From assembly GCA_003194525.1 (NCBI GenBank), contig NBIV01000265.1, forward strand, positions 35,287 through 99,286: a stretch of DNA of 64,000 bases. The letters are read 5' to 3'. The translations under genes were made by a program, and so were the position numbers. The notes beneath the pieces are model-generated. The model saw nothing but the letters and a program-made list of their open reading frames with translations. It was not told the origin of the DNA and made no database searches. Positions 3,828 through 38,237 of the stretch are shown in pieces (the first letter of the stretch is position 1; every line of letters begins with the position of its first letter). Source of the stretch: Gracilariopsis chorda. Taxonomy: Eukaryota; Rhodophyta; Florideophyceae; Gracilariales; Gracilariaceae.

Positions 3828-4865
3828 ATGGCTCCAGCACACATCCCTTTTCACTCCGCTTCACCGACTTCCGGATTTGCTTCAACCACTCCCGTTGAAG
3901 AACCTCTATCTGTCGATTCTTCTCCGCAGCCCCTCACTACCCCGGCGCCATTGCTGGGCGCTTTTCAACCGCCTCCACGCACTGCCGGTGCCGTGCTTTC
4001 GCAGAATGCGCCTTCTGCACGCGCACCTTCTACAGCGGCTTCGCAGTCCCGTTCCCAGGCATATGGACTTAGAAATGGTGGTCATACTCCTACCATTGCT
4101 CATCGCCCGAGACCACGACCTTGTCAGCGAGGCGGCCGCCGTTCTGGTTCTAGTCGAGGTACCGGCTTCACGCAAAAAGAAGTCTAAAGTGAATTAAATT
4201 TAATTGAGAAGTATCTACCTCTTTGTGAAGAGGAGTGGGATATGGTTGCAAAAGAGCACGGCGAGACATTTTTCGTAGAAAACTGCACTGTGGATAGTAT
4301 CAAGCGTAAGTTTGCTACACTCCACCGTCGTAAAATTCCAACCGGCGATCCACGGATGCCGGATGACGTGCGACGAGCTAAGCGTTTACGCTTTCGTATG
4401 TGCGAGAGAGCTGACATAGGCGAAGGGGCAGGTGCAGAAGAGACTATTGGTGGAATTCTACCGAGCAGTGATGACGAAGCTGATGACACAATGGACGCCG
4501 ATGAAAACGAGCTCGCTGCCCCGAACTCGCCAAATGTTGAGCACGTTCCCGCCACCCCGAGCAACACTCTCGCTGATTCTGTTGATAGTCCACGCCCGAC
4601 TATGGGAGTGCGCCCCATCGTCTTCAAGAGGTCCCAAGCTCGTCTCTCACGCACATCAAGGGAAACCGAAGGAGATAATTTTTACCGGCTTTTTCAAATG
4701 TCGCTGTTGCAAGAGCAACAGCGTAGAGAGGAGGATATGAGGTGTTGTCGAGAAGATCGAGAAGAGAACAGAAGGAGAGCTCAAGAAGAGGCTACACGAC
4801 ACCAGCAGCTTATGGAAATTATGACCATGCTTGTAGCTCAAAACGCTCGCGCTAAAGAACTTTAG
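3828..4865 (+). pseudogene. Harbinger-associated Myb/SANT-like DNA-binding protein, one internal stop
   Basis: In Harbinger elements this partner protein binds the element ends and helps bring the transposase to the nucleus. The reading frame is continuous for 346 codons except for one TAA at 4185-4187. N-terminal residues 1-119 are Pro/Ser-rich and end in a basic GGRRSGSSRG-type stretch. After the stop, the frame continues through a helix-turn-helix-like region (LIEKYLPLCEEEWDMVA, then SIKRKFATLHRRKIPTGDP, then VRRAKRLRFR). This resembles the DUF6818/SANT-like domain seen beside such transposases. An acidic linker and a C-terminal coiled coil (about residues 270-340 of the full frame) follow. 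The stop falls inside the DNA-binding domain, so either the gene is dead or translation restarts at Met 4242, losing the first helix. The stop codon overlaps that of the convergent transposase by 4 bp. Confidence 0.7.
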
Positions 4866-6175
4866 ATATGTAGCGATTCGTGCAAGAAAAAGTTAGCTAC
4901 TGCACTAAGATGCGGCATATACGATGATAAGATTTGATTGATACCAACCATACGAGCTCTCAAGTTGAAGAGTAGGACGGTACAGTATAGAATTAGCTTT
5001 CGTTCTCCGTGTTCTTCATAAACGAGTCGATCCTTCATTCTTGGGAATGAGCCTTGAAAAGCCCTCATACCCCACTCCGACGCTTGTCTTGCAGAAGTTG
5101 CTTGTCTCAACAGGACGACTTTGGCCGCACCATCTGCCCTAGTTTCATCTTGAGCGGATTTGATGAGAAACGGATAGTCTCCTTTTGAAAACGCAGAATC
5201 TACCACACATCGGCCCCCGTAAGTCCTGTAGCAATCTTCAAGTTTTTTGTATACTCCGCCCCATTCTGCTATTTGTGAGTCATGCATACATCCAGGTGAA
5301 TTTATTGCGCATGATACGATAGTCCCCGACGGTGCAAAAACAAAGACGTTACCAACGTAGTGGTGATGAATCCAGCCGTTGTAAAACATGTTTTGAATTA
5401 CGAAGTCCCCAGACTGCTCTAAGTACAGCTTGAGGCCATCCGCTACAGCGTACACATTTTGTAGAGACATGTACCTAGTGGAAAAGGCAGTCTTATACTG
5501 TTCCATCTCGTGCTGATCCGGCATCCGTACTTGTGCCCGGCTGTCCCTTGAAAGTACACGAAGTAGAAGCCTTCTACCGAAGCGAATGAAAATTGAACAC
5601 ACAGACGATGTAATGCCAAAGAGCATGCATAACGAAAACATCGATCCGCGTGTTCTGTGCCATGCAAGAACCAACCCCAAACACTGAGTCGCGGACATAC
5701 TTCTCGGCCTCCCCCTTGTGCGATTCGTTAAGGCGATGATTCTGATGACTCCATCTTCCGAGTAGGGAGTAAATCTGCGATATAGTGGAGCAAACTGCTG
5801 TAGTATAGCAACAAACGTGTAATGGTCAAAGCCGGTCACCGTTATCAAAGATTGATCGCACATTGACTGAAGCAGCACCATAAACGGGGAAATGGCAGGA
5901 CTTTGTAAAGCCCGGCGAGTTACTCTGCGGTCTCGACGTCTTCTTCCTGCAATCGTTAATCGATTTCGTAAGCCGATCCGTGGCACCTGGCGCTGACGTT
6001 GCGCCAGCATCGCGAGCAAGAGTGCAGATATAGAAGGCATAGGGACGCTCGTACTCGGTGTCGTACTCGCACACAATTGTGTGCGAGAGTTGCCGAATTG
6101 GTACGGACGTTTCATGCCCATTTCAGTCGTATCAAATCTGTCAATAAGTATTTTGATATTTGAGTGCTGGTACAA
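4862..6175 (-). CDS. PIF/Harbinger transposase (DDE_Tnp_4 type)
   Basis: This 437-residue protein is of normal length for the family and would cut and paste the element. A basic N-terminus (to about residue 95) is followed by a helical region with a helix-turn-helix-like part. The catalytic core has its first Asp in VYAVADGLKL, second Asp in GCMHDSQIAEW and Glu in SEWGMRAFQG, in the order and context expected of a Harbinger DDE nuclease. There are no internal stops or frameshifts, unlike most elements nearby, so it could still encode active enzyme. It starts at Met 6175, only about 26 bp inside the right TIR, so the TIR region probably contains its promoter. The partner DNA-binding gene lies tail to tail on the other strand. 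Confidence 0.9.
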   Translation of the reverse strand: MYQHSNIKILIDRFDTTEMGMKRPYQFGNSRTQLCASTTPSTSVPMPSISALLLAMLAQRQRQVPRIGLRNRLTIAGRRRRDRRVTRRALQSPAISPFMVLLQSMCDQSLITVTGFDHYTFVAILQQFAPLYRRFTPYSEDGVIRIIALTNRTRGRPRSMSATQCLGLVLAWHRTRGSMFSLCMLFGITSSVCSIFIRFGRRLLLRVLSRDSRAQVRMPDQHEMEQYKTAFSTRYMSLQNVYAVADGLKLYLEQSGDFVIQNMFYNGWIHHHYVGNVFVFAPSGTIVSCAINSPGCMHDSQIAEWGGVYKKLEDCYRTYGGRCVVDSAFSKGDYPFLIKSAQDETRADGAAKVVLLRQATSARQASEWGMRAFQGSFPRMKDRLVYEEHGERKLILYCTVLLFNLRARMVGINQILSSYMPHLSAVANFFLHESLHI

Positions 6176-7543: not shown

Positions 7544-8445
7544 TGAAGTGCAATCCTCAAGGAGGAAGACTAAATGATGCCCTGTGGACTTGGTGTTTTT
7601 GCCACTTTCGCGTGTTTATGATTATTACCGCTATTAGCGGGTGTCTCAGCCCTCAGCGGATCCGCACTGTGCACCAGGTGCACACCTGTGCATGCGCCGT
7701 GTGCCGCCCAAGGCGTGAGTGGACGTCGTGTGACACGGATAGTCAAGAGGAGGTTGGCACCACAGTGTGGACATTTAGTTAGTTTATATTTCTTATTTAT
7801 AATTTATCTACGCTACAGTAGGGGGATTACTACACTATATGGTGGCTCGGCGACCCCGCCCTGACACTGAGTAAACTTCCTCAGCCAAGGGTTCTTGGCT
7901 CTAAGTCTTTTCCGCTTTCGCGAGTCTTCTACACTCCTCGGAGGTAAAGCCGCGTCACTAACGGTAGACCGATCCACCCTGCGTCACCAGGACTATCACT
8001 GCCTTGGGCGTTTGACACTTAATTCACCACCGCCGTGTTCTCACCCCTGTATAGGGTTCCTTTGTACCTTTTTCCGTGGCCCCATTGGCCAACGCCCCCG
8101 TCGCCCCCAATCGGGCATCCCCCGTATTTCCCTTACCCCACTCTCGTGGTTCCTACCCCTTTATGTGGTTGCTCGTCACCGCTGACGCGTGTCTCTCGTG
8201 CCGGTATCCCGTGACGTCTTCCCCCACTTACGTGAACTCGTACGCCTTGGAAGGGCTGTTTTCCCATTCGTGGTGATCCTAATCCTACCGTTTCAACTCT
8301 CCCCGCTTGGCGTGAGGGTGAGCCTCGGCTTTACAACCCGACTTCGTCGTGCTCATCCGGAGAGGCTCTCTTCGCTGTGTTACCCTCCAGAGGGGAAGAT
8401 CCGAACGTCTTCGTGTGTTGTCCCGCTTGCGCGTATTGCACTACA
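7544..8445 (+). repeat. Gypsy 1 5' LTR
   Basis: It begins TGAAGTGCAAT, ends GCACTACA, and matches the 3' copy over its whole 902 bp. The AT-rich stretch around 7780-7810 (TTATATTTCTTATTTATAA) is a plausible core-promoter region. Confidence 0.92.
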
Positions 8446-8734: not shown

Positions 8735-10419
8735 TTGAAGGACGCTCCCAACTCTGGTGTCGACCCGGCTTCTGTCGATGTAGCTGCACCCCTTAGGGGA
8801 GAACCCGATACCGACGCCCCCCCTAGTGTCCGAGCGCAGCTTGATGAGGTGCGTGAAGCACACAATACCCTCGTGGAGGAGTTTGAAGTCCTGCGTGTCA
8901 GGTTTGATACCTCTTCTATGAAGGATTTGGCTGAGGAAATTCGCCTTTTAAGGGCGGATGTCAACACTGTGTTGGAATGTTCTGGTGGTCCTGCCAACTA
9001 TGTTGAGAATGTGGAAACTCGATTTGATCGTGTCAGTGCCCGTCTGAGGGCATTGGAGCAAACCATCTTGATGGATGACGACGTCTCGGGTGAGGCCGCT
9101 GCTGTCTCGCAAAAAGCGAAGCGCGAGAAGAAAGATTCTACCCGCCGCACTCGTAAGAAGAGGACTCCTCATTGTATCGTACACCCCGCGGTACGGGTAA
9201 GGTGAAGGACTGCATAAAGCGTATGCAGCTTTCGCTTCGTAACTAGTCCTTTTCTGGAGAAGATCCCATATTGGTGTTAGACGTCCTCGGAAGGTTCGTT
9301 TCCGAAGCGGAAATACTTGGTATGAACGAAGGACAGGCGTTTATTGCCCTACCGTATTTTCTACGTGGCCTCGCCAAGGATCAATACAACTCTGTAAGAG
9401 GTTCTTCCCGAGCCTCCGAAGGAGGTGTAACGTGCTGGCCGGAAGTGGTTCAGTACCTCTTGCGATCCTACGCGACGAAAAACGCTATTCAAGCGGCTAT
9501 TATCGCTTTACGCGATACCCGCCAGAAATCTGGAGAGACGGAAACCGAATTCTCGGTAAGCCTTAATAAGGCTTTCCACAGGTGTGGCAATTTTTACTCC
9601 TCTGGAGAGCGCTGCACCATGTACATCAATGGATTGGATCCGGCAATCCGTACGCTGGTGGCCCGATATCGGGAGGATCGTCGTAACACCACCTACTTGG
9701 AGTTGATTCAACACGCGCAAGCGGAAGGTGATGCACTTCGAGCTCGTATCCCTGCATCGAAGTTTCGTTCCGCCAAGGCGTTGATGATGGAAGCCAGTTC
9801 ACCATCTTTATCGCTAGCAGCGAGTGGACGCCCTTCAAGGGACTACGATAACGTGTACCTCACTCAGGCCGGTTCCCAGTCTATTCCGACCACGGAACTG
9901 CCGTCCACGACGGATGCGTCCTACGACACAGCTCAGGAGCATTCCCTGCTGTATTTTGACGGACCCCGTGTTCAAGGACCTCGCATTCCCTATGCGAATG
10001 GTGCCCTCCGGCAGAGTGGTCCCGGATGGAGGGATACCCGCCCAGCAGTGAGACACACGGATGCTCGTTCCGGTCAGCTGCCCCCACGCTCTGGAGTCAT
10101 ATGCCACATATGTTACGAACACGGTCACATTTCACCGGACTGCATCCTCACTTTGAGAGAAGTAACCCGAGTGATCAGTAACTATGAAGCCCTTACTCCA
10201 GCGGAGAAGCGGACCGTTCCGATTGCATCGTACTTACGAGCAAAGACGGACTTCCACCGGAATATCCCGGATACGAACCCGCGACACGCGTTGCTTTCCC
10301 CTGCTGAGCAGGTCACCAACCCCCGTCTTGTTCGACAAGAAACCCCCGCTAGCGCTCCACTGCTAGTGGTTCAGGACTCTGAGACCCCGCCTCAGGCGAA
10401 ACGGGCTCAGGAAAACTGA
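8735..10419 (+). pseudogene. Gypsy 1 gag (coiled-coil N-terminus, capsid, zinc knuckle), frameshifted
   Basis: Gag forms the particle and packages the RNA. The first open part (8735-9205) has an Asp/Pro-rich start, a coiled coil of about 90 residues and a Lys/Arg-rich end. The frame then shifts, and the capsid part reads SFSGEDPILVLDVLGRF and GQAFIALPYFLRGLA, classic retrotransposon gag, to 10419. A CCHC knuckle (CHICYEHGHISPDC) lies near 10102-10143. The two parts are separated by a frame change around 9155-9205 and by a TAG at 9244-9246, so a single gag is not made from this copy. Met 8735 is the first start in the N-terminal frame, 290 bp after the LTR. Confidence 0.85.
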
Positions 10420-10641: not shown

Positions 10642-13600
10642 ATGGTGCGAGTTCTCACTGTTTTGGACACAGGTGCAGGCCCGAACTTCATCGTTGAGTC
10701 ACTCCTGCCACCTTCGTTGCAGTCGCAGATACGCCATGGCGTGATACCGGATGTCGCGGATGCACATGATAACCCGTTATCAACGGTTGGGACAATAGAC
10801 CTGGTCGTGCGCCTTGGCTCCTTTCTTGTGAAACTCGACTTTATTGTTTGTCGTAAACTTGCCGCCCCTTTGATCTTGGGATGCGACTTCTGTGACAGAT
10901 TCGTCGATGCCATCAGGCCCCGTCTAAGACGTGTGGAAATGGAAGACGGCTCCTCCGTTCCAATCGTACGTCGTCCTCTACGACGTGCCTCGAAGAAGCA
11001 CGTTCCATTACCTGCTGCGCAGGAACCCCCACCGGCTTCCCGGGACTCTACAAAGCTCCGCGTTGCCGCGTCTGTCCAACTTCCACCGGAATCCCAAGTT
11101 TGGGTACGAGTCACTTCCCGTCAACACGGTTTACGAGTAATTCAACCCCTTTCATCCTTATATGATAGGTATCAACTCGCCGTGGCGAATGGAGTAGCTC
11201 AAATTGAGCCCGATAAACCGTTCAACGTGCTGGTCGCCAATCTAGGCTCTACGCCCCAGTCACTGGTGAAAAACCAAGTCATTGTTTCGGTAATGCCCCA
11301 CCCCACCGCGATGGTTCCCACGAGAATGACCGCCGCCGATGTCCTCGGTCTCGTTCACTCTAAGGAGGAGGAGGACACTGCCCTCCAAATGCCGAAATGC
11401 TCGGATGCTAAGCCCGTTCCAACGAGTTACGACCGAATTGATCCCGTGAAAGAACTTGAGGAACTCGACCTCGTTCATGTGCCGGAATCGCACCGTGAAC
11501 GTCTCCGTGAGATGCTACGGAATTTCACCACGATGTGGGATGGCTCCCTAGGGGAGATTACTACAACGGAGCACCGGATTGACTTGCTACCTGATACCAG
11601 GCTGATCGCTCAGCACCCCTATAGGGCAGGCCCTAAAGCTCGAGAAGAGGAAGAATTCCAAGTGGAAAAGATGCTCCGAGCTGGAGTAATAGAACCGGCT
11701 CAGTCGCCGTTGGCATCCCCAGTGGTACTGGCTCCGAAACCGGATGGATCCTGGCGCTTTTGCATCGACTACCGTCGACTGAACGCCGTAACCATCAAGG
11801 ATGTGTACCCGATCCCACGAATGGATGAGTACTTCGATTCACTCGGAAATGCTACCGTTTTCACGGCTCTAGACGCCAATTGGGGATACTGGCAGGTGCC
11901 CGTCAGGGAACAGGACCACGACAAGACTGCTTTTGTCTGTCACTCCGGACTCTACCGTTTCAAACGGATGCCTTTTGGTTTGACCAATGCTCCCGCTACT
12001 TTCCAGCGTGCTATTGACATACTACTGGCTCGCTTCAAATGGCGTACATGCCTCGTCTACCTGGACGATATCATAGTATTCTCAGATAATCTGGATGACC
12101 ACCTTACACACGTGATAGATATCATGACCACGCTACGTGAGGCTGGAGTTACTCTCAAGTTGAGTAAATCTGAGTTCTTTACAGATACAGTGAAGTATCT
12201 GGGCCACATAATCCGCCCTGGGCGTGTGATGATCGAGGAAGCTCGAGTTAAGTCGCTCCATCAAGCGAAGGAACCCGCCTCTCAAACGGAACTACGCTTC
12301 TTTCTAGGATTATTCAACGTCTATCGACGGTTTATCCCGAGTTGTGCGGACATCGTAGCACCCTTGAACGCGCTCTTGCGGAAAGGCCAACCACCGAAAT
12401 TGGAACCCTTTACGTCCATCGAGACGGAGGCGTTTAACTCCCTCAAGGAGGCTGTAACATCAGCACCGATCTTATCGTTACCGAAACCCGGACTACCGTT
12501 TACCGTAGACACGGATGCTAGTGAGTACCAAGTAGGTTGCGCTCTCTTTCAGACAACTCCCGAAGGAGAACGAACCCCTATTGGGTACTGGTCACGCTCA
12601 CTGAATGTTCACGAGCGGAATTACTCCGTCTCGGAGAAAGAGTGTCTTGCAGTTGTGTGGGCACTCTCCACTCTCCGCCCCTATCTTATGGGTGTGCATT
12701 TCACCGTTTACACGGATCACTCGTCATTACGATGGCTCATGACAGTCTCTGAACCGTCAGACCACTTAATGCGTTGGAGGCTCTGCCTGGCGGAATTCTA
12801 CTTCGAGGTGTTCTACAAGAGGGGCACAAAGAACGCTCAGGCCGACGCGCTGTCGCACTTACGCACGGATGGTGAAACTCTACCCAATGGGGACGAGGAC
12901 ATTCGTTGCTTCGTCGTCGATGGTCGAGAACCGGAGAACCCGGACCGTGAACCCGATAACTCGGATGAAGAACCGGAATCGGATGATGAACTGGACGCAC
13001 TACTCGTCTTGGAAGATGCTCAGAAACCCCCACCGGGTAATTTCGTGCCAATACCCCCAGAGGAGATGGTCAGAGAACAACAAGGTGATCCCTTCTGTAC
13101 GCAGATTCGCACCCGACTTAATGGCGGTGCGCAACTCCCTTTCGAGGTGAATGATGTTGGATACCTCGTCAGGACGGTTCAAACAACCCCACAAGTAGTG
13201 GTACCGCATACTCTAAAATCTAGATTGTTGCACTTGTCGCACTATGCGGAACTTGGTGGACACGCCAGTGGACGGAAACTTTACCTCACGTTGCGACGGA
13301 GTTACTATTGGCCAGCCATGGCTGTGGACTGCTAGGCGACTGTGCGGTCATGCACGGAGTGTGCCAAAAACCGGGTCAAACTCCGGAAGCACTCAACGAA
13401 TTTGAAGTTATTCCCAGCACGGGCCCCTCTCGAGTTTGTCTCTATTGATCTCTTGGGACCGCTGCTCACCACAAAGCGTGGAAATAAGTTTTTACTCGTT
13501 ATCACGGATCGTTTCTCCAAGTTGGTTCGCACCGTACCTTTACGGAATATATCCGCTTTCGCGGTGGCGCAAGCCTTCTTCACCCATTGGGTATTTGTCT

Positions 13601-15018
13601 ACGCACCACCGGGTAACATTCTATCCGATAACGGAAAGAAATTCGCATAGCGATTCTTTGAGGACGTGTGTCGGATTCTCGATATCAAGAATCTGTTCAC
13701 AGCGACCTACCACCCCCAGTGTAATGGGCAAGTCGAGCGGTTTAACCGAACGCTGTTAGCCTCTCTCCGTTCTTACGTTGCTGATCACCCCAAAACATGG
13801 GACCTGTACACGGACGCCTTGACGTTTGCGTATAACACACAGGTACACCGTACAACGGGTTTGACTCCATTTGAATTGGTAATTTCGCATCATCCGCCCG
13901 CCGTAGCATTGGAACCCCAGCCTACGCTGGCAAACTTCCATTCCGTGAAGGATTATCGCCAACGATGGAAAGCGTGGCTCACGAAGTTAATCCCGGTCGC
14001 CCTGAGCTCCATGGCACGAGAACAGGCCGCGTACAAGCGTGATTTTGACTCTCGTGTACGAGGTACAGCACCGCCAATTACGGAGGGTGACTACGTCTTC
14101 GTCCGTAAGGAGCACTGGAACCCTGATAAGGAGAAATGGCATAAGCTCTCACCCGTCGCGGACGGTCCCTACAAGGTCATATCAGTGGATAACGACACCT
14201 TAGCGGTGGAAATGAACGACGCTCATGAGCGGATTTCCCGCGATCGCGTTGTTATGGCACTGCCAACCTCCGTAGAGGTTGCTTACCAAGATGAGAACCA
14301 ACACACCCCAGTGGAACAACCCACATCTGTGGTTAACAGGCCTTCTGTGCTGCCACACCCTTCAAGGGGACTCTCAGGTATACCGTCTTTATCGGACGCA
14401 GGCCCGAATGGCCTTTCTTCTCTAACGCCACCGCGCGGTGTCTATCCCCGCAGTTTGGGCGCTTCTACCACTCCCCATGCCACTCCGTCTAAGGAGGGGG
14501 AGGAGGACCCTAACTCTCGTCGAGAGACTGAAACTGCTTCGTCGCGTCATGACAACCGTGGTGCACGAACCTTCGGACACATCAAAAAGGATAATAGTGG
14601 ACCGGGAGTTCCATCTACTGACGTGCCATCTTCGCATTTGCGCGCTACAGCTACCGCTGAACCCTCTCGAGGAAGTTCTACCGCATCTGCGCCAGATTGC
14701 ACTCCCCACCGGGATTCTAGTCGTCAAAATGCACCACGCAGTGGGAAGTCTCTCGCCAAAGTGAAATCGTCGCAGGAAACTAATTGCGTTCACGATACTG
14801 AACCGGCTGTGCCGTCGAGCGTTGATCTGCATTCCGTGGGTCACGGTTCGTCAACAACAGCTACGCTGGATAATGCAGAGCAGGCCCTCGCAGGATCCTC
14901 TGAACCGACTACACCGGACGTGGTAACTCCTACTGAACGGAGAACACACCGGCCAGGCCGGGCAAGCACACAGTACAGGACAGAAGGAAAACGACCAGCA
15001 AGCTGGATTCTGGTTTAG
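10642..15018 (+). pseudogene. Gypsy 1 pol: protease, RT, RNase H, integrase; two amber stops
   Basis: One frame spans 1,459 codons. Protease has VLDTGAGPNF at residues 8-17. RT has LVYLDDIIVF with catalytic Asp pair near residue 472. RNase H has VDTDASEYQVG and YTDHSSLRWL. The integrase HHCC zinc region runs across the first stop (HYAELGGHASG, then CTECAKNR). The integrase core has Asp in SIDLLGPL, Asp in LSDNGKKF and Glu in GQVERFNR. A GPY-type module (VADGPYKVISVDND) follows, then a long Ser/Thr/Pro-rich tail. TAG stops at 13333-13335 and 13648-13650 cut the integrase; the third TAG ends the ORF at 15016. Protease-RT-RNase H up to 13335 is uninterrupted and could be expressed. The start is not fixed by an ATG: pol is normally made as a fusion or by recoding. 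Confidence 0.92.
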
Positions 15019-15048: not shown

Positions 15049-15943
15049 GTGTCTCGGTTGATCCTGACAGTGTCGCCGAAGTCGCACCGGTCACTCCGGA
15101 AGGAAAGCACGTCAGAGACGGAAATACTTCGTCCGCCGAAGCGAGAAAACACACCGGCAGCGCCGTTGCAACCGCCCTCACGTGAGGAGGCGGAACGCAA
15201 CACGGCGCGGACAACCCTCGACCATCCATTGCAAATGGCACGTGACCCCGACACCGTACGGACGGCAAAGGCACCAATCACCACCCGAGGCGAGCCGACG
15301 CGTACTGTACGACGCACCGTGGTGCAACCGACTTCGTCGTCAGGAGCACCCCCATCAAGACGGATATCTACACACAAACCTGTGGTTCGCAACCCAGATG
15401 CTCATCTTCCAGATGCGTTGGAAGCCCATCAAAGGGTGTCGTCAATAAACGACCCTGCAAGAAGTGAAGAACCCGCGAAGCGGGATACTTTTAACCCACA
15501 GTAAGGGTCCCGATACGCACCGTCAAGTGGTCGATGCAACCGGCCGTGCCGAGGACCTGCAGGCCTGCGAAGCGGATGACCCTACCCGGAAACCGGTTAA
15601 TGACCCCTCTCAGGGCATGGAAAGGCAGTACCAAGCCATGCCCCTTCCGGGGAAGACTGTCCAACACCCACCAGTGGTGGTAGAGCCTGCCGTGCAGGAC
15701 GCAATAATGCGAACACGGCGAGGCCGGGAAGTCTACAAACAAGAGTTTGTTGTTGACCACATTGTGGAACATTCTTACCATCCAGATGGTTACATCCAGT
15801 ACCGCGTACGCTGGTACGGTTTCGGGCCCGAATATGATTCGGGTGAGCCGATAGAGCACCTCCCACGTTCGAAAGTGGTGTCATATCATCGCAGAACGCG
15901 AACGCGAATCCCGGCATCGGTGATAAACGCCCAAGTGGGATAA
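15049..15943 (+). pseudogene. Gypsy 1 pol tail and chromodomain, frameshifted
   Basis: After the TAG at 15016 the pol frame stays open to 15504 as an Arg/Pro/Thr-rich linker. An overlapping frame (15464-15943) then carries a C-terminal chromodomain. This module would bind modified histone tails and guide integration into heterochromatin, as in chromoviruses. The domain spans 15743-15895 (EFVVDHIVEHSYHPDG, then QYRVRWYGFGPEYD). One aromatic-cage position that is normally Trp (in the DSWEP context) is Gly here, from a GGG codon at about 15842. The linker between integrase and chromodomain is unusually long, about 450 residues. Both the frame change and the lost Trp suggest this copy is inactive at this step. 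Confidence 0.8.
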
Positions 15944-16093
15944 GTAAGCCATTGCGGTGGAAGAAAGGAAAGGAAAGAAGAAGGAACACAAGTCAACTTG
16001 GATTTTATTCGATACGATCGATGGAACACCGACTAGTCGAAGGACTACACTACGTCACACGGTTGCACCCCCATGGTGAGGGAACAGCCCCCC

Positions 16094-17797
16094 TTACGGA
16101 TTGGAACCGCCCCCACCTTGGTGGTTATTTCCCTGGAGTCGGGCGATCAGAGCATCCCACATCGCGGTGACATCGCCACTGGCCTCGTTACCTCCCAGCC
16201 CCATTTGGCGGAGGAACTGAGAGATCACGGCAGCCTGACCCGCAGGGGCCACGTTCGCCTCACCTGGCGTAGAGGACCCACCAGTGGGAAAACCGACCGA
16301 CGGATCGGACGGCTGACCCGCAGGGGCGACTCCAGGAGCATCCGTACCATATGGTTCTCCCTCCGCCTTGGCGTGACCGGCACCTTCGTTGGGCTCGTTG
16401 TCGAACATCGGATCCTCACCGTCTTAGACGTTGTAGTACTCATCGGCGTCAACAAAACCGGTCGGATGCCCCTTGGGGATATATCTCGGTGCAAACCGGA
16501 GCTCGTTCGCTTCCTCCGCGGAGATCTCATGCCCCTCCCAAGGGTTGAAGTAGATGAAGCCACCCGCGAGCGGAGTTCGACGCCCTGGTGACAGGTCCTG
16601 TATCCTGCTACCGGCAGTACGCCCACTCTGCTCTAGAGGAACCGAAGCCTAGTCAACCTGGTCGATGAAATCGAGGAGCCCCGCTACTTCGTCAGCGTTT
16701 GCCTCACCAATTAGTGGGGTTTGTAAGTCCAGCGCTCGGATGGCGGCACGGACCCGCAACGGGATGACCCACAGTCTGTACAGGTCATAAACCTCCCAGA
16801 GGATGAAAGCAGCTGTGTGAACCGCCCATTCGGTGACCACCACGGACCAGAGCCCGGACTGAGGATCCTCGATGAGGTATGAGCCGTAATACGTGATCAT
16901 GGGAGGCAACTCAATGTAGCAACCTCGGCACGCTTCGAGATGCGACCACCACGGTGGAATCGGAACATACCGACCCCGTCGGTCGACCACGCGGATGCGT
17001 TCGACTTCTTCGTTCTGATACGGAATCAAATACCCGAATCGGGACCGTGCTCGCCGCTCAAAGCGTATCATCGACAAGAAGTTGGCCCTCGCCAAGCGAC
17101 GCATATAGCGGAATTCAGCCCGAATGATCGGTGGTGTCCAGCACACCACGTGTTGGTGCGCCCCGGGGTTGCTTCTCCACGAGAGTGTTTCTAAACCCGC
17201 GAGGCGGTCGAGGTACCCCATTTCTCCTTGGGTGCGATACAATCCGATGTCCAAGCCCATACCATCGGGGATGGGATACTTGAAGGGAGCCCGGCGAAGC
17301 CGTTACTGACCAAGTAAGACCAACGTCACATGCGCGGAAGCTGTTGATTCCCGACCCCGTCGGATTACCGTGTGCACGGGTATCGCTACGCGATTGCGCC
17401 AATTCCACGAAGTGGTCACAATTGCCGGAACGTCACCCGGGAGCATCCCGTTTCCATCGGTGTACATCGCCAGAAGCGCATAATTGAACACCGCAGTCGG
17501 ATGGAACCACGGCACCAGCCGGAGAGTCATCGCATGTCGCGAAGGCTGCAGCCCCACCAGCATTTCGTACGACTGCCACGCTGCCATTGGAAACCATCTC
17601 GCGGGAGCCGCACTCGCATTTGCGCCTGTTTGTTGCGACGGAGTTGAGAGACCGCTCTGCGGTAGAGGCACGGAATGAAATCCGGAGAAGTACTGTAACG
17701 GTGTGTTGTTGCCGGCGTTGCCGTTGTTGTTGCTGTTGTTGTTGTTCATCGTAGATGAAGGAAGCCGAGTAATCGGAGAAGAAGGCCGCGAAAGCAT
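16094..17797 (-). pseudogene. Antisense accessory gene of gypsy 1, unknown protein family
   Basis: One minus-strand frame runs 568 codons from Met 17797 to a stop at 16094, opposite to gag-pol, in the space between the chromodomain and the 3' LTR. Stops at 17303 (TAA), 16649 (TAG) and 16424 (TAA) interrupt it, but coding-like sequence continues on both sides of each. The N-terminus is Asn-rich (MNNNNSNNNGNAGNN). The middle is hydrophobic and aromatic (YVPIPPWW, LPPMITYYGSYL, EWAVHTAAFILWEVYDLYRL). The C-terminus is Gly/Pro-rich and ends with GDVTAMWDALIARLQG. No signal peptide, DDE, RT or env signature is visible. Gypsy 2 has a homologous gene in the same place and orientation (37680-36481). 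Its start lies about 170 bp from the 3' LTR, so an antisense LTR promoter is plausible. The function is not known to me. Confidence 0.75.
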
Positions 17798-17958
17798 GTG
17801 TGTTGTTGGAAGAACCTCGTGAGAGTTGCTCGCAGATTCGCTGTTCGCAGCTATGTGCTCGTTACCCAGAGTGGGATGGAGAACCGGCGAGCCGGACTTA
17901 CATTTAAGGACTTTTCATGGTGCTTCCGCTGCCATCGTGGATGTCGTACTTGCACTTC

Positions 17959-17970
17959 AGGAGGGGGATA
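17959..17970 (+). promoter_or_regulatory. Gypsy 1 polypurine tract
   Basis: AGGAGGGGGATA immediately precedes the 3' LTR and is absent before the 5' LTR, as expected for the plus-strand primer. Confidence 0.75.
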
Positions 17971-18872
17971 TGAAGTGCAATTCTCAAGGAGGAAGACTCA
18001 GCGATGCCCTGTGGACTTGGTGTTTTTGCCGCTTTCGCGTGTTTATGATTATTACCGCTATTAGCGGGTGTCTCAGCTCTCAGAGGATCCGCACTGTGCA
18101 CCAGGTGCACACCTGTGCATGCGCCGTGTGCCGCCCAAGGCGTGAGTGGACGTCGTGTGACACGGATAGTCAAGAGGAGGTTGGCACCACAGTGTGGACA
18201 TTTAGTTAGTTTATATTTCTTATTTATAATTTATCTACGCTACAGTAGGGGGATTACTACACTATATGGTGGCTCGGCGACCCCGCCCTGACACTGAGTA
18301 AACTTCCTCAGCCAAGGGTTCTTGGCTCTAAGTCTTTTCCGCTTTCGCGAGTCTTCTACACTCCTCGGAGGTAAAGCCGCGTCACTAACGGTAGACCGAT
18401 CCACCCTGCGTCACCAGGACTATCACTGCCTTGGGCGTTTGACACTTAATTCACCACCGCCGTGTTCTCACCCCTGTATAGGGTTCCTTTGTACCTTTTT
18501 CCGTGGCCACGTTGGCCAACGCCCCCGTGGCCCTCAATCGGGCATCCCCCGTATTTCCCCTACCCCACTCTCGTGGTTCCTACCCCTTTGTGTGGTTGCT
18601 CGTCACCGCTGACGCGTGTCTCTCGTGCCGGTATCCCGTGACGTCTTCCCCTACTTACTTGGACTCGTACTCCTTGGAAGAGCTGTTTTCCCATTCGTGG
18701 TGATCCTAATCCTACCGTTTCAACTCTCCCCGCTTGGCGTGAGGGTGAGCCTCAGCTTTACAACCCGACTTCGTCGTGCTCACCCGGAGAGGCTCCGTCC
18801 GCTGTGTTACCCTCCAGAGGGGAAGATCCGAACGTCTTCGTGTGTTGTCCCGCTTGCGGGTATTGCACTACA
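17971..18872 (+). repeat. Gypsy 1 3' LTR
   Basis: It is the same 902 bp length as the 5' copy, with matching TG and CA ends. About 30 differences are visible by eye, several of them in 18500-18680. Confidence 0.92.
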
Positions 18873-21924: not shown

Positions 21925-22353
21925 TACTATGAATCTGCGGTGGTGGTTCCTGTTTCTGTCTCCACGTTTGCGGTTAGCAGTTGCTCATCCTTGGTTTTGG
22001 ACGTTGGTAGAATTGTTAGAGTCCCAAGCTCGATGGTTATTACGTCCTTTCCCTTTGTTATATTTTTCATTTGAGCTTTTATTTTTGGGATGTTGTTCTT
22101 TTCCTTCTTTTTGCGCCGACATTCGGCTCTGATGTGGCAAATGCCTCCACAATTCCAACATACAACTCCCTTCTTGTTCCCTTTTGCACGCTGCTTGCGT
22201 CGGGTTGTAGACTTGTTTTGCAGCGTTGTAATGGTGAATGCCATTTTTCTTGGTCTCTGTGGTCGTCGTTGTAGATAAAGAAGCCCGTTGAATACGTTGG
22301 TCTACTTCGGATAACAAAAGTGAAACGAATTGATCGTATTCCATGTGGGTTGC
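21925..22353 (-). pseudogene. Copia 1: gag C-terminus with zinc knuckle
   Basis: MEYDQFVSLLLSEVDQRI begins at the gypsy 2 junction and parallels MEHDQVASLIRSEMDRR in copia element 2. After a frame change the knuckle CWNCGGICHIRAEC follows (CX2CX4HX4C), then a Lys-rich stretch. The N-terminal part of the same gag lies beyond gypsy 2 at 38243-38765. Confidence 0.85.
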
Positions 22354-22889
22354 TGTAAGGAAGTGAAGACCGCTTATCGGACTGGTGTTCTGGCTGCAGG
22401 AGCCTTTCGTTCTTGGCTCATGTAGTACTCGTAGTGGCATACGTGTTTGTTGGTGGCAGCTAGTGCCCCGCGAACGGTAAGCCATACACGTGTGGCGCTG
22501 CCCGGGAAGATATTTATTCTCCGCTAGGGCGGCCGACGCCCTCACCAGGTAAACTCATGGTGCTTCATACTGGGCTCTTCGTCTTGGTCCCTTGGCACGG
22601 ATCCTAGGTCGTAGTAGGAGACGCAGATCGTCAAAGTCCTATACAGGCTGCGCCGTATCGGATATCTACCGTTACATTGGCTCCCTGCTTAGGCACCTGG
22701 TACCTTTTTGGGCTACGCGTGTCTCCCTACTCGCCCTCACAACAGGGGGCCCTGCGCTACTCTGCACTTTGACAGTACCGCCTTTTCCAACTCTGTAGCC
22801 GCACGGCCTTACAAACCATTGCGCGAGACCCACCGCAACCGTTCCCGGACATTTCACTTGAGTAGGACGTCCGCGCATACTACCTCACA
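22354..22889 (+). repeat. Gypsy 2 5' LTR
   Basis: It begins TGTAAGGAAGTGAAG and ends ACCTCACA. It aligns over its whole length with 37701-38237. Confidence 0.9.
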
Positions 22890-29010: not shown

Positions 29011-32000
29011 TTAAGGTTGTGGAGGGATGCAGAACTGAATGGCTTCAGGCAGCACTGAGTTGGCGATTGGAACAGGCATGGGATCAATTGTGTGCGCATT
29101 CACGGGTGTAAACTGCGGGCCATCTAGAAGCAGCACTTGGTCGTTGTTTCGAACGCCCGACAATGTGACATACAACTGACCAGCGCAGAAAAATGTGGAT
29201 CGCACATCAACAAACAAGCCTCCCAACGTCTTTCCCTGTCATTTGTGAACGGTAGCTGCAAACGCGAGACGAATGGGGAACTGCTTTCGAATCATGTGAA
29301 TATCTGCGAAAGAAAACTCGAAGTTCATAAGATGCAGGAGCTGTCGTTCTAGCACCTGTCCGGTCTCGTCGAATCGAGCCACCTGCATCGTAAACTGATC
29401 GACACGCACGACTACGAACAGCTTTCCGTTGACCACAGCACGATGCAGCACGTTCCAAATGACTATAACTGGCACACCAATCTTCAAGTCCAAGTTATGA
29501 GGTGGTACTCCAGTAGGGGCATACTGATATGCAAATTCTGGAACAAAAGTATTGGTAACCTCGGGGTCTGAGTACTGTCCAAAGTTAGGTTTTACCGTCG
29601 TAGCTGACGGAAGAGTTAAGCGTTCACCAGGAAACAGATCCAGCGCTGCCACATTTTGTTCGTCGAGCAACTGGTTTGTGGACGCAATGAGCATTTTGCT
29701 GAGATCCACATCCTCCTTGCGTCGTGTTGTGAGCCACTTCCACAGGAATTGGTAAGTGGTTTGCATGCCACTGGTAGATCTGAGTGGTAGTGGAGCGTTG
29801 TTGAATATTGTGTTGCGTGCAATGGAACGTAACAGCGACGCAAATGCAGGATCATCGGCTTGGCGTATTTGTTCGGGGAGATACAGCACTTGACCCGAGC
29901 ACGCCGTCCACAGATCTCTCTTCCATGGCAATTCGTTGAGAATGTTTGTGTACCCTCGTCTTACATTTCCACTTGGCTCGGCCTCCATGCACACCTGCGG
30001 CACCACTGGAAGCAGCTGGGAGTAGTCGCCGGATGGAACGATGGTCAAGCCCCCAAATAGAGGCGGGTTTTCCATTCCACTGCAGCGAAGATCTTTGAGC
30101 AACGCATCCATAAGTTCAAAGAGCTTTCTTGAGAGCATGGAAGCCTCATCAAAGACGAGCAGTTGTATTTCGCTTATCAGTTCTGCACGTTGAGATCGGG
30201 GACCGTACTTTGACAAAGTGGCTGTAGTACTGCTTGTGCTGTCCCTATCAGCTACATCCAGTCCGAGCAGGCTATGTGAAGTGCGGCCACCTTCGTACAA
30301 AGATGCTGCAATTGTTGTAGCAGTCATTTTGGCGAGCATTCCTTCCGACTCAGCGATATCACGAAGGAGGTTGAGCACGTATGTCTTTCCGGTTCCTGCG
30401 GATCCTTGCACAAAGAACACGTTTCCAGGAGTGCTTGTTCGCTCCTGCAGCGCCTGTCGTTGTTGCAATGCGGCAATGACGGTGTCAATGACTTTTCTTT
30501 GGCGAGGTTTTAAGGTGGCGTACCTTGACTGCAAAGTTGACGAATTTTGCACCACTCGCGTGCCTCAAGTTGTTGTAGCTCGAATCGCCTCAGTCAGTGC
30601 TGCACCATCCTGCTGTAGGTGTTTCGAGAAGAAGCTTTGATCGCGAAGCAGTTGTCCACCGTGTCGGTCTGAGATCTCCACCACACGTCGATACATTTCT
30701 TGCTTTCTTTGCTGCTCATCTCCTGTATGTATGTCGCTACATAGTGCCTCCCAGTTTTTGACGGCCATTTTCTCTGGGTCTGCGCCTTCTTGGTAGAGTG
30801 TGACAACCAGACGTCGTAGCTCGGAGGGCGTGCTGTATATCTGCACTGCTTCTTGAAATGCAATATCAAACTCGGATCCGTCCACGAGCAGTCCGATTGC
30901 AATCGCGGTTTCACGAAGAGTTTCATACTGCTGTTCGTTGAAAGTCCTTGTGTCTTCATAAGAGCTCGAGCCGTGATTCATGAGCACCAAGCGCAAAGCA
31001 AATAGCTCAATTTCCGACGGGGAAACACCTCTGATCCTTGCGACGCACTGCTGGTCTTCGGTGCGCTCTATCACGTACATGGGCGGATCGCAGTCGTCTG
31101 TGGGCACCTGAGTGCTGTCTCCGTCGTATTGGTTAAGCACGCGGGTAGGAAGAGTGCGATTGAATTGCACTTTTTCAAAGTACGCACGGTAGTCGAGGTC
31201 CGCGTATGCTTCGGGCCTTGCAAAGTATCTCTCCAGTGTAGACAGCTGCGATGTGGAATGGATTTAATTTGGACCTCTGGGTAGAAAAATTCGCTCTCCT
31301 TTCAAGTGAATGACCAGTCGTTCTACTTTTGGTAAGATGTGAACATGTCGAAACTCAAATTTTCTCCAAGCTGCGATGACGGCGCCCACCACACGCACTC
31401 GCATGTATGCACGAATGTCGTTCTGCACCTGCGGCTCTTGTTGCTGCTCGTTCTGTGTACCTGTCTCACTAGCACCACTCACATTGAGCACCACGTCCTG
31501 AAATTTGGGCTGTTTGAACGCGTACTTCATCAGATAAGCCACTGCACCCCCTCCTTGCGTGCGTTCTACGTTGATATGAGAGCGGTACTTCTTGGTCAGA
31601 TTTGGGTTGTACGGCACAATCCTGATGTCTTGTTGCCTTCTTCTGCTGTAGATCACGCGATTCGCGCCTTCTTCAATGTATGTTTCGGGCACAATCATGT
31701 TGCTGTCGTATCCAAACTTGCACCGCCCAGAGCGATTCCGGCAATAGGGGGAGTGGCGGTGCCTGTGCATGGACTGAATGAGGCCACGCAACGCGTCGTC
31801 TTCGCCTGGAAGAGGAGGTTCTGCACGAATCAGCTCGTCGATCACATCAACGTCTTCAATCATGCCTTCTTCGACCCAAACGAGCATGTGGTGATGAGGC
31901 ACATTGCGCTCTTGAAATTCGAGCTTTGATGCAAGCCCCAGGCACTTCATTCCAAAGATGTGCTCCGAGTTTTCCTCCAGGTCCTTCATGAAGTCATTTG

Positions 32001-34617
32001 CGTACTGGTTTTACACCCTTGCAATCAGATCCAGTCGGTCAAACGGTCGAGGGTGGTTATTCTGTACCTTACATGTGCCAAGATTAGTGGTGTCCATCCC
32101 AAGTCGCTGGATGTCCTCTCGCCATATGTTCATGGTGATTGTACTGAACAGAGAAGGCGGTCCTCTCTGCGCTACGATCGCCTGTACATCCATGAGCTTG
32201 TTCCTCCATTACGCTGCTGCGTTGCCGAGTCATCGGGCAGAAAGATGCGTCCCATTTGCGCGAAGTGGGATGGTGACACATGACCTGTTTGCTGTTGCGC
32301 TTGTTGGGTCTCTTGCTCTTGTACAATACGTGCCTGTTGTTCTCTCTCCAGGAGACGTAGTCGCATGTACTCAATGGTTTTGTGCGTGCGAAGCATCCAC
32401 ATCTGCATTATCGGTCCACTGTTTAGGAGGATGTTGTCTGAGTACAAACGTCGCTTCGCGTTCTCAGCCCAGGTGAGCTTTTGGAGCTCCCACTCGTTGC
32501 CGCTGAGACCTGAGCTTTGCTGTGTGGAGTTCCTTGCATCCAGAAACAGGTCGATGTCAAACGGTTCGTGCTGATCACCGTGCGGGTAGAGAAGAGGGAA
32601 AGTGCCCTTGTCTGCAAGTTTGGATGCCGGTTTTAGAAGTCGGTACCGCACATGCGCATTGTTTGCAACATTCTCAATCGTCCTGCCCTAGCGGCAGCAG
32701 CACTCGTCACTGCAGTGTGCTCTTCGGTAACGGTTCCTTCTTCCAAGCGCGGTACTTGAGACTCCACCCGGTACAGGCCAGTTGGATCAACCACGAGCGT
32801 TCTCATCATGGTTGGGCCCCCACCAGGAACACCTTCAGGGAGAGGGCCAGCACCTGCATGAGGAGTACTGACTGTAGCACTTCGGGTTCCTTCGTATTCA
32901 CGTACGACTACTCCTTGTTCCGCTGCTTGCACGCTGATATCCACGGCGGTCTCCGCATTTTGTTGTTGTTCTTACTGTTGCGTGTTAAGCATGAATCGGT
33001 AGCGTTCGTGCACCATGGCTGGCTTTGGCTGGATCACCTCGTACAATTTGAGTACGATATCTCTTACGTTGATGTCCTGAATGAACGCGCGCAGATTGGC
33101 ACGCGCATAGTGAGATGGATCCAAGGAGGGCGGACCGGTACCACACAGAAAGCTGTAGCGCATGTTGTTCCGGTTCTGTGTGGGCAGAGCGAGAGCTGCG
33201 TTGCCCTCAAGTCTGAGAAAAGAGGGACCGCCTCCCGTCACATACGACATGTCCATGAACGCTCGCGTCGTCGCGAAGAGCGTATTCAAGTTGAGGAAAT
33301 AGCTGTGAAAGCCTCTCAGGCAATAAACACTGCAAACTAACACGCTGTTATGCCTTCTTCGGAACGTGATGCCCCACCCTGAAATTCTTTTCATTCCACA
33401 GCACACTTCATTGGTCTCTTTGCCAATCAAAATGCATCCGCAGTACTTGCAGCTATGAATTCTCAATGTCCAGTCCGGGTACGTGCAGGAGGAGAGCGTG
33501 TGTGCGTGCTCCCTGCATCTTCCGCATCGCCTTTGACCCGCAGTGGAAAGCGTCTCAAACTCTGGAACGCTTGCACGGATGGCGCGATCATTCCTCTCCT
33601 GAGCTGCCACGGTATACGACGCCTACTACAAGCGATACAGTCCTCGATCCGGACGTCCAGCACACTGCATGATCTTCGTATCAAGCTGCTGAGGTGGGTG
33701 CTACGGCTGCTGCAGCTGCTGCTGTGGCGGGTGTAAGAAAGCAGGAGTGATCTCATCTTCTTCAACTTCTATGGGAACTGGCATCTGCTCTTCTTGTTCT
33801 TCGGGTTGTGGCAGAGCAGGTTGCTGTGGCGGCTGTGAGGGGACGGGAGTGATCTCATCCTCTTCCAATTCTATCGGGATGGGCATCTGTTGTTCTTCTT
33901 CAACTTGCAGCATAGAAGGCTACTGCAGCGGCTGAGAGGGAGCAGGATTGATCACGCCCTCTTCCACTTCCACCGGAACTGGCATCCGTTCTTTTCTTTC
34001 AACTAGCGGCAGAGGACGGGCGTCTGTCTCCACGGTTGTGTTGCCCTCATCATTGACAGCAGGCCCAGGCATTGGTGGGAGGGATGCAGGCATAGAAGAG
34101 GAAGTTGGTCGTGATTTGGGCCAGGAACCACTTGCCCCAGTGACGCACGTGGGTGCAGGAGTAGTTTTGTCCTCTTCCCCGGCCGGAACAATGGGTCTTT
34201 GCACATGCGCTCCGCTCTCATTTACCGGCATCTCATCTGGAGCGGGAGGAACTGGCAATCGTCGAGGTCGTCCAGCTCCTGGCCTTGCGCCGCCTGAGTT
34301 CACTCTGGCACCTCCCAAATTGGCTCTGGCACCATCGGAATTGGCTCTGGCCCCATCTGAACTGGCTCTGGCGACTCCAGAATTGGCTCTGGCACCTCCA
34401 GAATTGTCTCTGGCACCTCCGGCATTGGCTCGAGCACCCCCAGCATTGGCTCTGGCACCTCCAGCATTGGCTCGATCACCCCGGTATTGGCTCGGGCACC
34501 TCCAGAACTGACTCTTGCACCTCCCGAATTGGATCTGGCACCTCCAGATCTCGCTCGAGCACCTCCAGAGTTCGGTCTGGCCCCATCTGAGGTTGGACGT
34601 GGACCTCCTCGCGTCAT
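29011..34617 (-). pseudogene. Helitron Rep-helicase (RepHel), several stops and frameshifts
   Basis: RepHel nicks and unwinds the element for rolling-circle transposition. From Met 34617 an Ala/Gly/Arg-rich repeat tract leads to Pro/Glu repeats and a Cys-rich zinc region (33610-32972, e.g. CGRCREHAH, CKYCGC). Then come a Helitron_like_N part (FPLLYPHG, 32600), Rep with the HUH-type motif PHHHMLVW (about 31895), a two-tyrosine motif AYLMKYAFK (about 31535), and a Pif1-type helicase with Walker A GSAGTGKT (residues 51-58 from Met 30555) and Walker B LLVFDEAS. Stops in the running frame lie at 32972, 32011, 31264, 30565 and 29239. Frame changes occur near 34490, 32650 and 32195. The stop at 29239-29241 falls in helicase motif VI (VHK-stop-QGKTLGG). 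The gene is inactive, though every domain is still recognisable. Confidence 0.9.
34300..34600 (-). repeat. 18-bp minisatellite inside RepHel
   Basis: More than 12 degenerate 18-bp units (core CCTCCAGAATTGGCTCTG) encode repeats of the type GGARANS on the minus strand. A one-base frame change inside the array shifts the repeat into another frame. Confidence 0.8.
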
Positions 34618-36480: not shown

Positions 36481-37680
36481 TTACAGCGTAAAAGGGTTTG
36501 CCACTGCGCACGAAAGAGTATCAAATAATACGCCACGGAATTGTTCAGATGTTTGGAGAGAGTCGGCTTTTGCTGCGCATAATGCGGTTCCGGGGACTAT
36601 ATTTTGGACCCTGAGCCCCTGGATGAAGCGAAACAGCTCACATGGGAGCCCGAACAGCTGTTCAACTGGAGCGTCCAGGTCAGCATCTTGCCTAAGGCGC
36701 CAGTCCGAGAACATCAACTGCATTATTAGTCCGTCATGGGCTGCGTATAGGAACGCGAATAATGGCAGCACTGCCCATTCCCTTTGAAGAACAGTGCGGG
36801 TGATGGATGGCAGGCGCCCTTTGGCGAGCATCAAGCCCGAATAGTATGCCGCAATCAGGGGAGTCAGCACACAAAGATACCTCGAGAAGTCGAACATCCG
36901 CTCTTCCTGCGGAACGGGAAGATATAAGCCCTGCAGCTTCGGACGAAGAAGATCCTGGAACTCCTGGTTGTCCCATCCGAAGAACACCACGTGACAGCTC
37001 TGGATGCGTGCCTCGTGGCTGATGTCATCGCCCCAGCGCTCATGCTCGCCGGTGAGGTAGAATCCGTCTAATGGCGCCTGCCACGCGATTAGAGCAGGGG
37101 GATTGTGGCCTGGTGGTGGGAAGGGTTCTGTGTCGGACTTTGAATCATAGTGATCGCAAAGGCAGCTGAGAATTACGGAAAGTCTGTGTTGATAATCTTG
37201 TTCCTGTGGGCACTGAAGCCACGGCATATCAGCGGATACAGCGAGTTCCGTTCGTGCGGCATTGAGGTGGGGTCGGTCATCGACTCGAATTCAGATGTGC
37301 CCCCATCGGGCTTCCCACGCACCGTCGCGAAGGCGTTTATTCCCTGCCCTATAACCGATGCTCGGATAAACCGGGAGGGCAAAGAAGCGAGAAGCATGGA
37401 GCCACTCAGCGGCGGCAGCAACGTACTCATGGAATGGAGAGGAAAGAACAATCCGACGACGGGAAATTGGTGTGCGTGCCGGAAAGTGGCGGTCGTCGAG
37501 CTCTGTGTCATGGGTGACCCAATTCTCACTGACTTGCGGCATGATGGAGTGTGATCTGGGGTGCGGAACGAAACTAGATAAAGATGAAGGAGAAGGGGAT
37601 TCTGGTAAGGACGGGTCGCGCAGAACCGGTGAAAGATGTCGTATACGGAAATCGAAGATGGCTGTCCGGGGACGGACCAC
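36481..37680 (-). pseudogene. Antisense accessory gene of gypsy 2, homologue of the gypsy 1 gene
   Basis: One minus-strand frame runs from Met 37680 to a stop at 36481 (399 sense codons), broken only by a TGA at 37291. The second part (37227-36481, 248 residues) is intact. Matches to the gypsy 1 product keep spacing: YLPVP against YVPIP, then 26 residues to a YY pair in both (LIAAYYSGLML against MITYYGSYLI), then REWAVLPLFAFL against TEWAVHTAAFIL, then an Asp 15 residues after that Glu in both, and a DL 19-20 residues later. HVV followed by W and EF is also shared further upstream. The start is about 20 bp from the 3' LTR and overlaps the polypurine tract. The function is unknown; there is no signal peptide or enzyme motif. 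Confidence 0.75.
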
Positions 37681-37698: not shown

Positions 37699-37700
37699 TC

Positions 37701-38237
37701 TGTAAGAAATTGAAGACCGTTTATCGGAGTGGTGTTCTGGCTGTAGGAGCCCCTCCGTTCTCGGCTAGTGTAGTATTTGTAGTAGCACACGTGTATGCTG
37801 GTGGCAGCTAGTGCACCGTGAACGGTAAGCTATACACGTGTGCCACGGCCCAGCTAGATATTTATTCTCTGCTAGCGTGGCCGACGCCCTCACCAAGTAA
37901 AATCAAGGTGTTTCGTACTGGGGTCTTTGTCTTAGTTCCTTGGCACTGATCCTAAGTCGTAGTAGGAGACGCAGTTCGTCAAAGTCCTGTACAGGCTGCG
38001 CCGTATTGGATATCTACCATTAAATAGGCTCCTTGCTTAGGCGGCTGGTACCGCTTTGGGCTACGCGTGTCTCCGTACTCGGCCTCACCACAGCGGGCCT
38101 TGCGCTACTCCGCAACTTCACCGTTCCGCCTTTTCCGACTTGGTAACCACACTGCCTTACACCTCGTTGCGCGATACCCACCGCCTTCGTTCCCAGACAT
38201 TTCACCTGAGTAGAAAGTTCGCGCGAACTAACTTACA
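37701..38237 (+). repeat. Gypsy 2 3' LTR
   Basis: It begins TGTAAGAAATTGAAG and ends AACTTACA. It is followed by GTTGC, the target duplication. Confidence 0.9.

Follow-up and report, generated by a model that had tools for sequence, protein, structure and literature searches.

An antisense gene between pol and the 3' long terminal repeat in Ty3/gypsy families of the red alga Gracilariopsis chorda

In a 64,000-nucleotide stretch of the genome of the red alga Gracilariopsis chorda (contig NBIV01000265.1; this whole stretch is called the window below), a Ty3/gypsy retrotransposon which we name gypsy 1 carries, between the end of pol and its 3' long terminal repeat (LTR), a long frame on the strand opposite to gag-pol. 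The question is whether this frame is a gene of the element and, if so, what such a gene could be doing there. An earlier note on this DNA, made from the sequence alone, had proposed that a Ty3/gypsy chromovirus carries a conserved antisense gene here; position, orientation, length, homology and selection all speak for this proposal. We found that seven Ty3/gypsy families of this genome, namely gypsy 1 (also called F1), F2, F2b, F5, gypsy 2 and the two relatives of gypsy 2, F3 and F4, carry such an extra antisense gene. That the gene exists and is under selection seems to us almost certain.

The antisense gene in seven families

The frame noticed earlier has 568 codons (16094-17797, minus strand), and its position is as described, with the chromodomain on one side and the 3' LTR on the other. 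Three stops interrupt it (16424-16426, 16649-16651 and 17303-17305), and its terminal stop (16094-16096) is placed 150 bases beyond the end of pol. The frame stood as described; the gene itself turned out to be longer, as the start ATG of related copies corresponds to positions 17933-17935 of the window, 36 nucleotides from the 3' LTR, and a fourth premature stop is found 3' of this inferred ATG (17915-17917). Read in its frame and against its intact relatives, the window copy is a broken one, with four premature stops, which occupies positions 16094..17935 of the minus strand. The four intact relatives of the F1 family which we measured have 603 to 615 residues, and the intact antisense genes of the genome encode about 600 to 770.

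We searched the 91.3 Mb assembly of G. chorda with the middle part of the gypsy 1 antisense protein and with a piece of the antisense protein of gypsy 2, and obtained at least 150 matches for each query. Among the gypsy 1-type matches listed, 63 have 83-100% identity (F1) and 87 have 61-63% (F2, F2b and their kin). The earlier note had made its proposal depend on the frame being open in other copies; many of them do keep it open, since 79 of these 150 matches are free of stops within open frames of at least 600 codons (21 of the 63 and 58 of the 87, counted by hand). The gypsy 2-type matches listed include open frames of 738 (F3), 774 (F4) and 847 codons. The family F5 was detected from the side of the reverse transcriptase (RT), where the 5 kb behind a single copy of a common type of RT were translated: this representative has a 605-codon antisense frame which matches the family profile with 100% probability. 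There are 72 F5 copies genome-wide, and three more rows which are short pieces; by hand count the match is free of stops in 55 of the 72, and 45 are part of 643-codon frames. In the 13 intact genes that we examined, by contrast, all five remaining reading frames are interrupted, by 4 to 28 stops each, so the open antisense frame is far more than chance would give.

Gypsy 2 retains a remnant of the gene, a 269-codon open stretch at 36484..37290 of the minus strand. Compared by plain tblastn, the two window copies show weak similarity (E 0.11). A profile comparison of the two antisense proteins gives a probability of 98.6% (E 1.3e-15 over 235 columns), and intact copies of the two groups match each other pairwise with E of about 1e-6 to 1e-12. 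The earlier note was right about this homology and too narrow in limiting it to the gypsy 2 protein, for F5, the database proteins P0001 and P0006 and others share it. The landmarks by which it tied the two copies hold in both when counted on the translations: Y-x-P-x-P, 26 residues to YY, EWAV at 20 residues past YY in gypsy 1 and at 22 in gypsy 2, and an Asp 15 residues after the Glu. In the wider family YY is not general; EW and its neighbourhood are. The gypsy 1 group has further motifs of its own (APWF at the start of the core, YRTxGExxY and RxERRxRSRFGY), and several relatives of this group which reach the C-terminus share a conserved stretch, VIxxFLRxxGL..., after a variable linker.

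The antisense proteins of F1, F2, F2b and F5 have 39-60% mutual identity. Database relatives are few: one from G. chorda, a partial protein from Agarophyton chilense (P0006) and four further sequences. The G. chorda relative, P0001, is the hypothetical protein BWQ96_03215, which is 94% identical to the F2b protein and 48% identical to an F1 protein over 87% of the latter. It belongs to this antisense family and thereby gains a carrier element, while its database label reads just "hypothetical protein", without a link to retroelements. P0002-P0004 are 35-43% identical to F1, and P0005 is closely similar to the F4 protein. The relatives P0004 and P0005 (Logan records) sit on contigs of just 2,252 and 3,849 bp.

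The gene occupies the interval from pol to the 3' LTR; it is antisense to gag-pol and faces pol in a convergent arrangement. An LTR adjoins its start in all 30 F1 loci and all 17 gypsy-2-type loci, at about 800 nucleotides farther out in two of these 17. A chromodomain is found on the opposite strand in 29 of the 30 F1 loci and in 5 of 6 F2 and F2b loci (for F2, as a tblastn match to the chromodomain of gypsy 1); the opposite strand holds a Chromo-bearing pol at one F3 locus (L078) and one F4 locus (L076), and pieces of pol at an F2b locus (L077). The association can also be read from the RT side, where we compared 150 listed RT rows with the match lists of F1-type and F5 antisense genes. An opposite-strand antisense gene begins 4.2-5.6 kb 3' of the RT (start coordinates) for 60 of the 150, which is a lower bound, as other families are mixed in among these rows, and 60 of the 64 RT/antisense pairs within 9 kb are in this one arrangement, four being placed otherwise. 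Finally, F1 shares 43-44% identity with F3/F4 in the RT region, against about 24-32% in the antisense protein over the aligned parts. Antisense identity drops along with that of pol from family to family, as would fit co-inheritance, the antisense protein evolving faster than pol.

Several observations speak against extending this association to every element. For 90 of the 150 RT rows no partner was found in the match lists used; among them are rows close to a contig end and families not covered by these lists. In one unpaired RT family the 3 kb translated, which may have left the element, held no such antisense gene. No Chromo match was found in the pol flanking the F2b locus L077, and a match to pol was present in the short flank of only 3 of 30 gypsy-2-type, F3 and F4 loci. 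Because of the unpaired RT rows and of the family without the gene, we take the antisense gene to be a regular part of several families, and not one shown in all.

Two observations on individual loci may be added. At an F3 locus (L075, contig C43), a same-strand gag-like frame (702 residues, CCHC at 3892), accompanied by a protease-like frame, takes the place of the opposite-strand pol; it probably belongs to a neighbouring element. Two F1 genes, L024 on C34 and L025 on C564, agree in their frame ends, in the sequence at the start and in search score, a likeness that hints at a duplicate, either of the assembly or segmental.

The carrier of the window copy is a Ty3/gypsy chromovirus, given the order of RT, RNase H and integrase, the C-terminal chromodomain, the flanking LTRs and a gag with a zinc knuckle. 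All its sense features are on the plus strand: a 5' LTR (7544..8445, 97.3% identical to 17971-18872 across 902 bp); the CCHC zinc knuckle of the sense gag (CHICYEHGHISPDC, 10102..10143, from a motif scan of the frame translation); a part of pol with RT, RNase H and the start of the integrase (10642..13335; Pfam RVT_1 128 bits, RT_RNaseH 124, Integrase_H2C2 30); the remaining integrase (13666..15018; weak matches to rve_3 and SH3_Tf2-1, both below cut-off); and the chromodomain at the end of pol (15464..15943; Pfam Chromo 28.3 bits, cut-off 25.1). Between the antisense ATG and the 3' LTR lies GGAGGGGG (17960..17967), which resembles a polypurine tract and is putatively named so. The 3' LTR, recognised by its identity to the first, occupies 17971..18872.

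Selection on the antisense protein

Between families, the ratio of nonsynonymous to synonymous substitutions (dN/dS) of the antisense gene is 0.18-0.20 for F1/F2b, 0.24-0.26 for F2/F2b and 0.33 for F3/F4, values which are rough at the dS of 1.4-2.5 involved; the pair F1 and F2 is saturated, with proportions of nonsynonymous and synonymous differences (pN and pS) of about 0.33 and 0.75. Between families of the gypsy 1 group, the rate of difference at third codon positions is 1.6-2.3 times that at first or second positions. The synonymous excess whose absence, at a dN/dS near 1, would have counted for the earlier note against the gene is thus seen between families, and it is seen again below for inherited changes, although pairs of recently separated copies, within families, spread in dN/dS from 0.33 to 1.32 (pairwise median 0.485 for F1 cores).

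Within families we separated the changes shared by at least two copies, which are mostly inherited via the replicating lineage, from singletons, which have mostly arisen after insertion. In F1 (30 copies, whole gene), the per-site ratio of nonsynonymous plus stop changes to synonymous ones is 0.39 for shared changes (98:85) against 0.74 for singletons. In gypsy 2 (17 copies, 370 codons), it is 0.18 for shared changes (91:163) against 0.86 for singletons. Counted in the two shifted frames, the shared changes give 1.18-2.29. Compared with a non-coding baseline, the shared value of F1 is about half and that of gypsy 2 about a quarter. This means that, within F1 and gypsy 2 as well as between families, there is purifying selection in the replicating lineages, followed by decay after insertion. 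As inherited changes are more constrained than private ones, the protein would seem to be required by the element itself.

Some of these figures pull the other way and have to be set beside the rest. For shared changes the non-coding LTR, a control taken in three frames, stands at 0.63-0.81. The sense chromodomain, a weak yardstick with few changes, gives 0.53 for shared and 1.01 for single changes in its own frame, and 0.58 for shared changes in a shifted frame. These two controls imply that a part of the F1 value reflects mutational bias. The third-position excess of F3/F4 is mild (1.3-1.5 times, 423 changes against 332 and 293), and the ten near-identical copies of F3 offer two shared changes, with a singleton ratio of 1.32.

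A probable antisense transcript and the possible role of its product

In the window, an AATAAA stands after the antisense stop (16004..16009, minus strand), and it recurs in gypsy 1 loci. AATAAA is assumed to act as a poly(A) signal in red algae. We looked for this motif after the antisense stop over 270 nucleotides in the first 36 loci and over a longer stretch in the remaining 30. On the antisense strand it is present in 25 of 30 F1 loci, at the identical place in 23 of them, with none in 30 on the sense strand; it is likewise present in 4 of 6 F2 and F2b loci, in 11 of 17 gypsy-2-type loci (10 of them near one place), in all 10 F3 loci and in 2 of 3 others, and the sense strand of the same stretches has it in 2 of the 66 loci. 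When one representative is taken from each of six families, five have an AATAAA within 150 nucleotides of the antisense stop, with a chance in shuffled sequence of 0.003-0.06 each. This strand bias is as expected if the antisense messenger RNA were cleaved before pol while the full-length sense RNA remained uncut there. The LTR would be bidirectional, its 5' copy driving the sense gag-pol and the genomic RNA, its 3' copy driving the antisense gene, and the 3' LTR would need to contain or adjoin the antisense promoter. The antisense messenger may start in the LTR or at its edge, cross the single-exon gene and be cleaved at the AATAAA before reaching pol. A few loci count against this scheme: the F2b representative has no AATAAA at the expected place, and the motif is lacking in 5 of 30 F1 and in 6 of 17 gypsy-2-type loci. 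Judging by these signals, an LTR-driven and separately polyadenylated antisense messenger is probable.

The complete-looking relatives of the antisense protein have 460-769 residues, and ten proteins of at least 450 residues have isoelectric points of 5.0-7.7 and contain 12-19 tryptophans. In a crude hydropathy scan of 11 proteins no strongly hydrophobic segment was found, the best 19-residue Kyte-Doolittle mean being 0.95-1.71. No Pfam family scored above cut-off for the antisense protein, and no relative of it was found among the sequences of the PDB. An AlphaFold2 model of P0003, built with 8 sequences (mean predicted local distance difference test, pLDDT, 62.9; predicted template modelling score, pTM, 0.60), shows a largely helical core at about residues 30-400 and a C-terminal tail of low confidence; the fold comparison aligned 50 chains with this model, at its mean pLDDT of 62.9. 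In the model of P0002 (pLDDT 50.3) the tails are likewise of low confidence, and two helices at the C-terminus fall in blocks of pLDDT 58-75.

As selection acts on the inherited changes of the replicating lineage, the protein should favour its own element, and copies making a bad protein would leave fewer daughters. Its likeliest role is that of an accessory nuclear regulator, which would raise the transcription of the LTRs of its own family or lift the silencing imposed by the host. The points in favour of a regulator are the helical core with disordered tails, the absence of a hydrophobic segment, of gag likeness and of known domains in the searches made here, and the precedent of the plant elements Grande and Retand. 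Three results disagree with it: the isoelectric points do not suggest a basic nucleic-acid binder, a scan for lysine and arginine runs as nuclear signals yielded short runs in some relatives only, and Pfam contained no known DNA-binding or regulatory domain for the protein. We hold the role of regulator or anti-silencer tentatively, a little short of an even chance, since the measurements would fit a particle protein too. Taken as a whole, an antisense accessory gene with an LTR-driven messenger and a regulator-type product is the best explanation we can offer, and about evenly balanced between right and wrong. A wider proposal, that of an ancient and hitherto unrecognised protein family of red-algal chromoviruses, with an antisense gene obligate to their life cycle, two convergent transcripts and a bidirectional LTR, independent of the plant protein TRP28 and countering host silencing, is conceivable, and we would sooner doubt it than rely on it.

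The particle protein just mentioned deserves most attention among the alternatives. The same antisense messenger could encode a structural protein or one associated with the particle (a second Gag-like protein, or one for packaging or nuclear entry), and selection at the level of the element would fit any replication protein. Helical cores such as the one in our model are common among capsid-like proteins, the long tails rich in proline, serine and glycine resemble those of scaffold proteins, and several relatives that extend to the C-terminus have a short conserved stretch there. However, the element already has a sense gag with a CCHC knuckle, profile comparison with two sense gag candidates revealed no similarity (E 0.9 and 0.7), and a separate antisense messenger would be a poor route to large amounts of protein. 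We consider a structural factor unlikely, at a level that still deserves attention.

The protein might also act beyond the cell cycle of the element, in cell-to-cell movement or in an envelope-like function. Relatives in another alga and in further sequence sets would permit horizontal spread, but the 11 proteins lack a strongly hydrophobic segment, the plant env-like open reading frames (ORFs) are sense-oriented (PMC7264820) whereas the gene is antisense in the families examined here, and the parallel course of antisense and pol identity fits co-inheritance. A movement or envelope function therefore appears quite improbable. Very improbable, too, is that the antisense RNA is what counts, through duplex formation, small interfering RNA or transcriptional interference, the protein being incidental. 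Convergence with pol and a poly(A) signal of its own would yield overlapping transcripts, and control by antisense RNA has been discussed for plant elements (PMC7264820). Against this stands selection on amino acids in one frame, with third positions changing most: the inherited synonymous excess is confined to that frame, and stops interrupt the others. Least probable of all is a captured host gene or an insertion present by chance in some copies, for although retroelements do transduce genes and a homologue outside elements is possible beyond the 150 matches listed per query, homologous proteins stand at one and the same site and in one orientation in families with RT regions of 43-44% identity, with 60 of 64 nearby RT pairs in a single arrangement, so that capture is contradicted for the window families and is possible as an origin in their common ancestor.

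The surroundings in the window and the known antisense genes

Gypsy 2 lies on the plus strand between a 5' LTR (22353..22889, 84.2% identical to 37700-38237) and a 3' LTR (37700..38237) which adjoins its antisense gene. It is split by a PIF1-helicase region (29242-34597; PIF1 112 bits at 29242-30555, minus strand), which we take by inference to be Helitron-like and which includes a tandem array of a 21-bp repeat (34284-34597). The window as a whole is a dense nest of mobile elements. It contains a DDE_Tnp_4 endonuclease (4862-6175) and a DDE_Tnp_1_7 transposase (51693-52784), both on the minus strand, and on the plus strand a copia gag with a zinc knuckle (62525-63973). Three related ORFs of 531, 509 and 471 residues (43512-45107, 46725-48254 and 54358-55773, plus strand) have no Pfam match, and the second and third of them sit in a 1.9-kb repeat with 91% identity. 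An ORF at 57269-57976 (plus strand) encodes a Spondin_N domain (94 bits).

Antisense genes of LTR retrotransposons have so far been described mainly in plants. As the earlier note remarked, antisense ORFs 3' of pol are known in plant gypsy lineages such as Grande: maize Grande (gene23), rice RIRE2 and Silene Retand have antisense ORFs, termed aORF-3R, between pol and the 3' LTR, and gene23 of Grande is reported to have an antisense promoter and a nuclear product (PMC7264820). In Retand, a non-chromovirus lineage, 97% of the clusters encode an antisense TRP28 (PF04195) protein, for which a regulatory role has been proposed (PMC11963269). The red-algal gene resembles these plant ORFs in being an extra ORF antisense to gag-pol, in lying between pol and the 3' LTR and in being conserved across families. 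It differs from that of Retand in that the gypsy 1 carrier is a chromovirus, that the host is a red alga and that no TRP28 match was found. PF04195 had no match in 10 antisense proteins (E up to 10) or in the whole genome (E up to 1), in a search at the level of sequence, not of profile against profile, and run without a plant genome as control.

Outside plants, the fungal element Boty of Botrytis and Sclerotinia likewise has an ORF in antisense after pol and before the 3' LTR (PMC7264820). This likeness is one of architecture.

HBZ of human T-cell leukaemia virus (HTLV) is a bZIP protein and an antisense retroviral regulator. Its gene has a promoter in the 3' LTR (PMC10186651; PMC7264820). 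We propose HBZ as a work-alike of the antisense protein and claim no homology; Pfam gave no bZIP match in the antisense proteins scanned. In the open literature we found no description of an antisense gene in red-algal retrotransposons, subscription papers and the genome paper of G. chorda being outside this search. The architecture was already known in plants and fungi, and the protein family and the host group appear to be new. The copy number of F5, its near-identical copies and their intact frames would allow the function of the antisense protein to be tested directly in a seaweed. That red-algal chromoviruses share this architecture while their protein is apparently unrelated would point to repeated gain, and hence to a common need of such elements.
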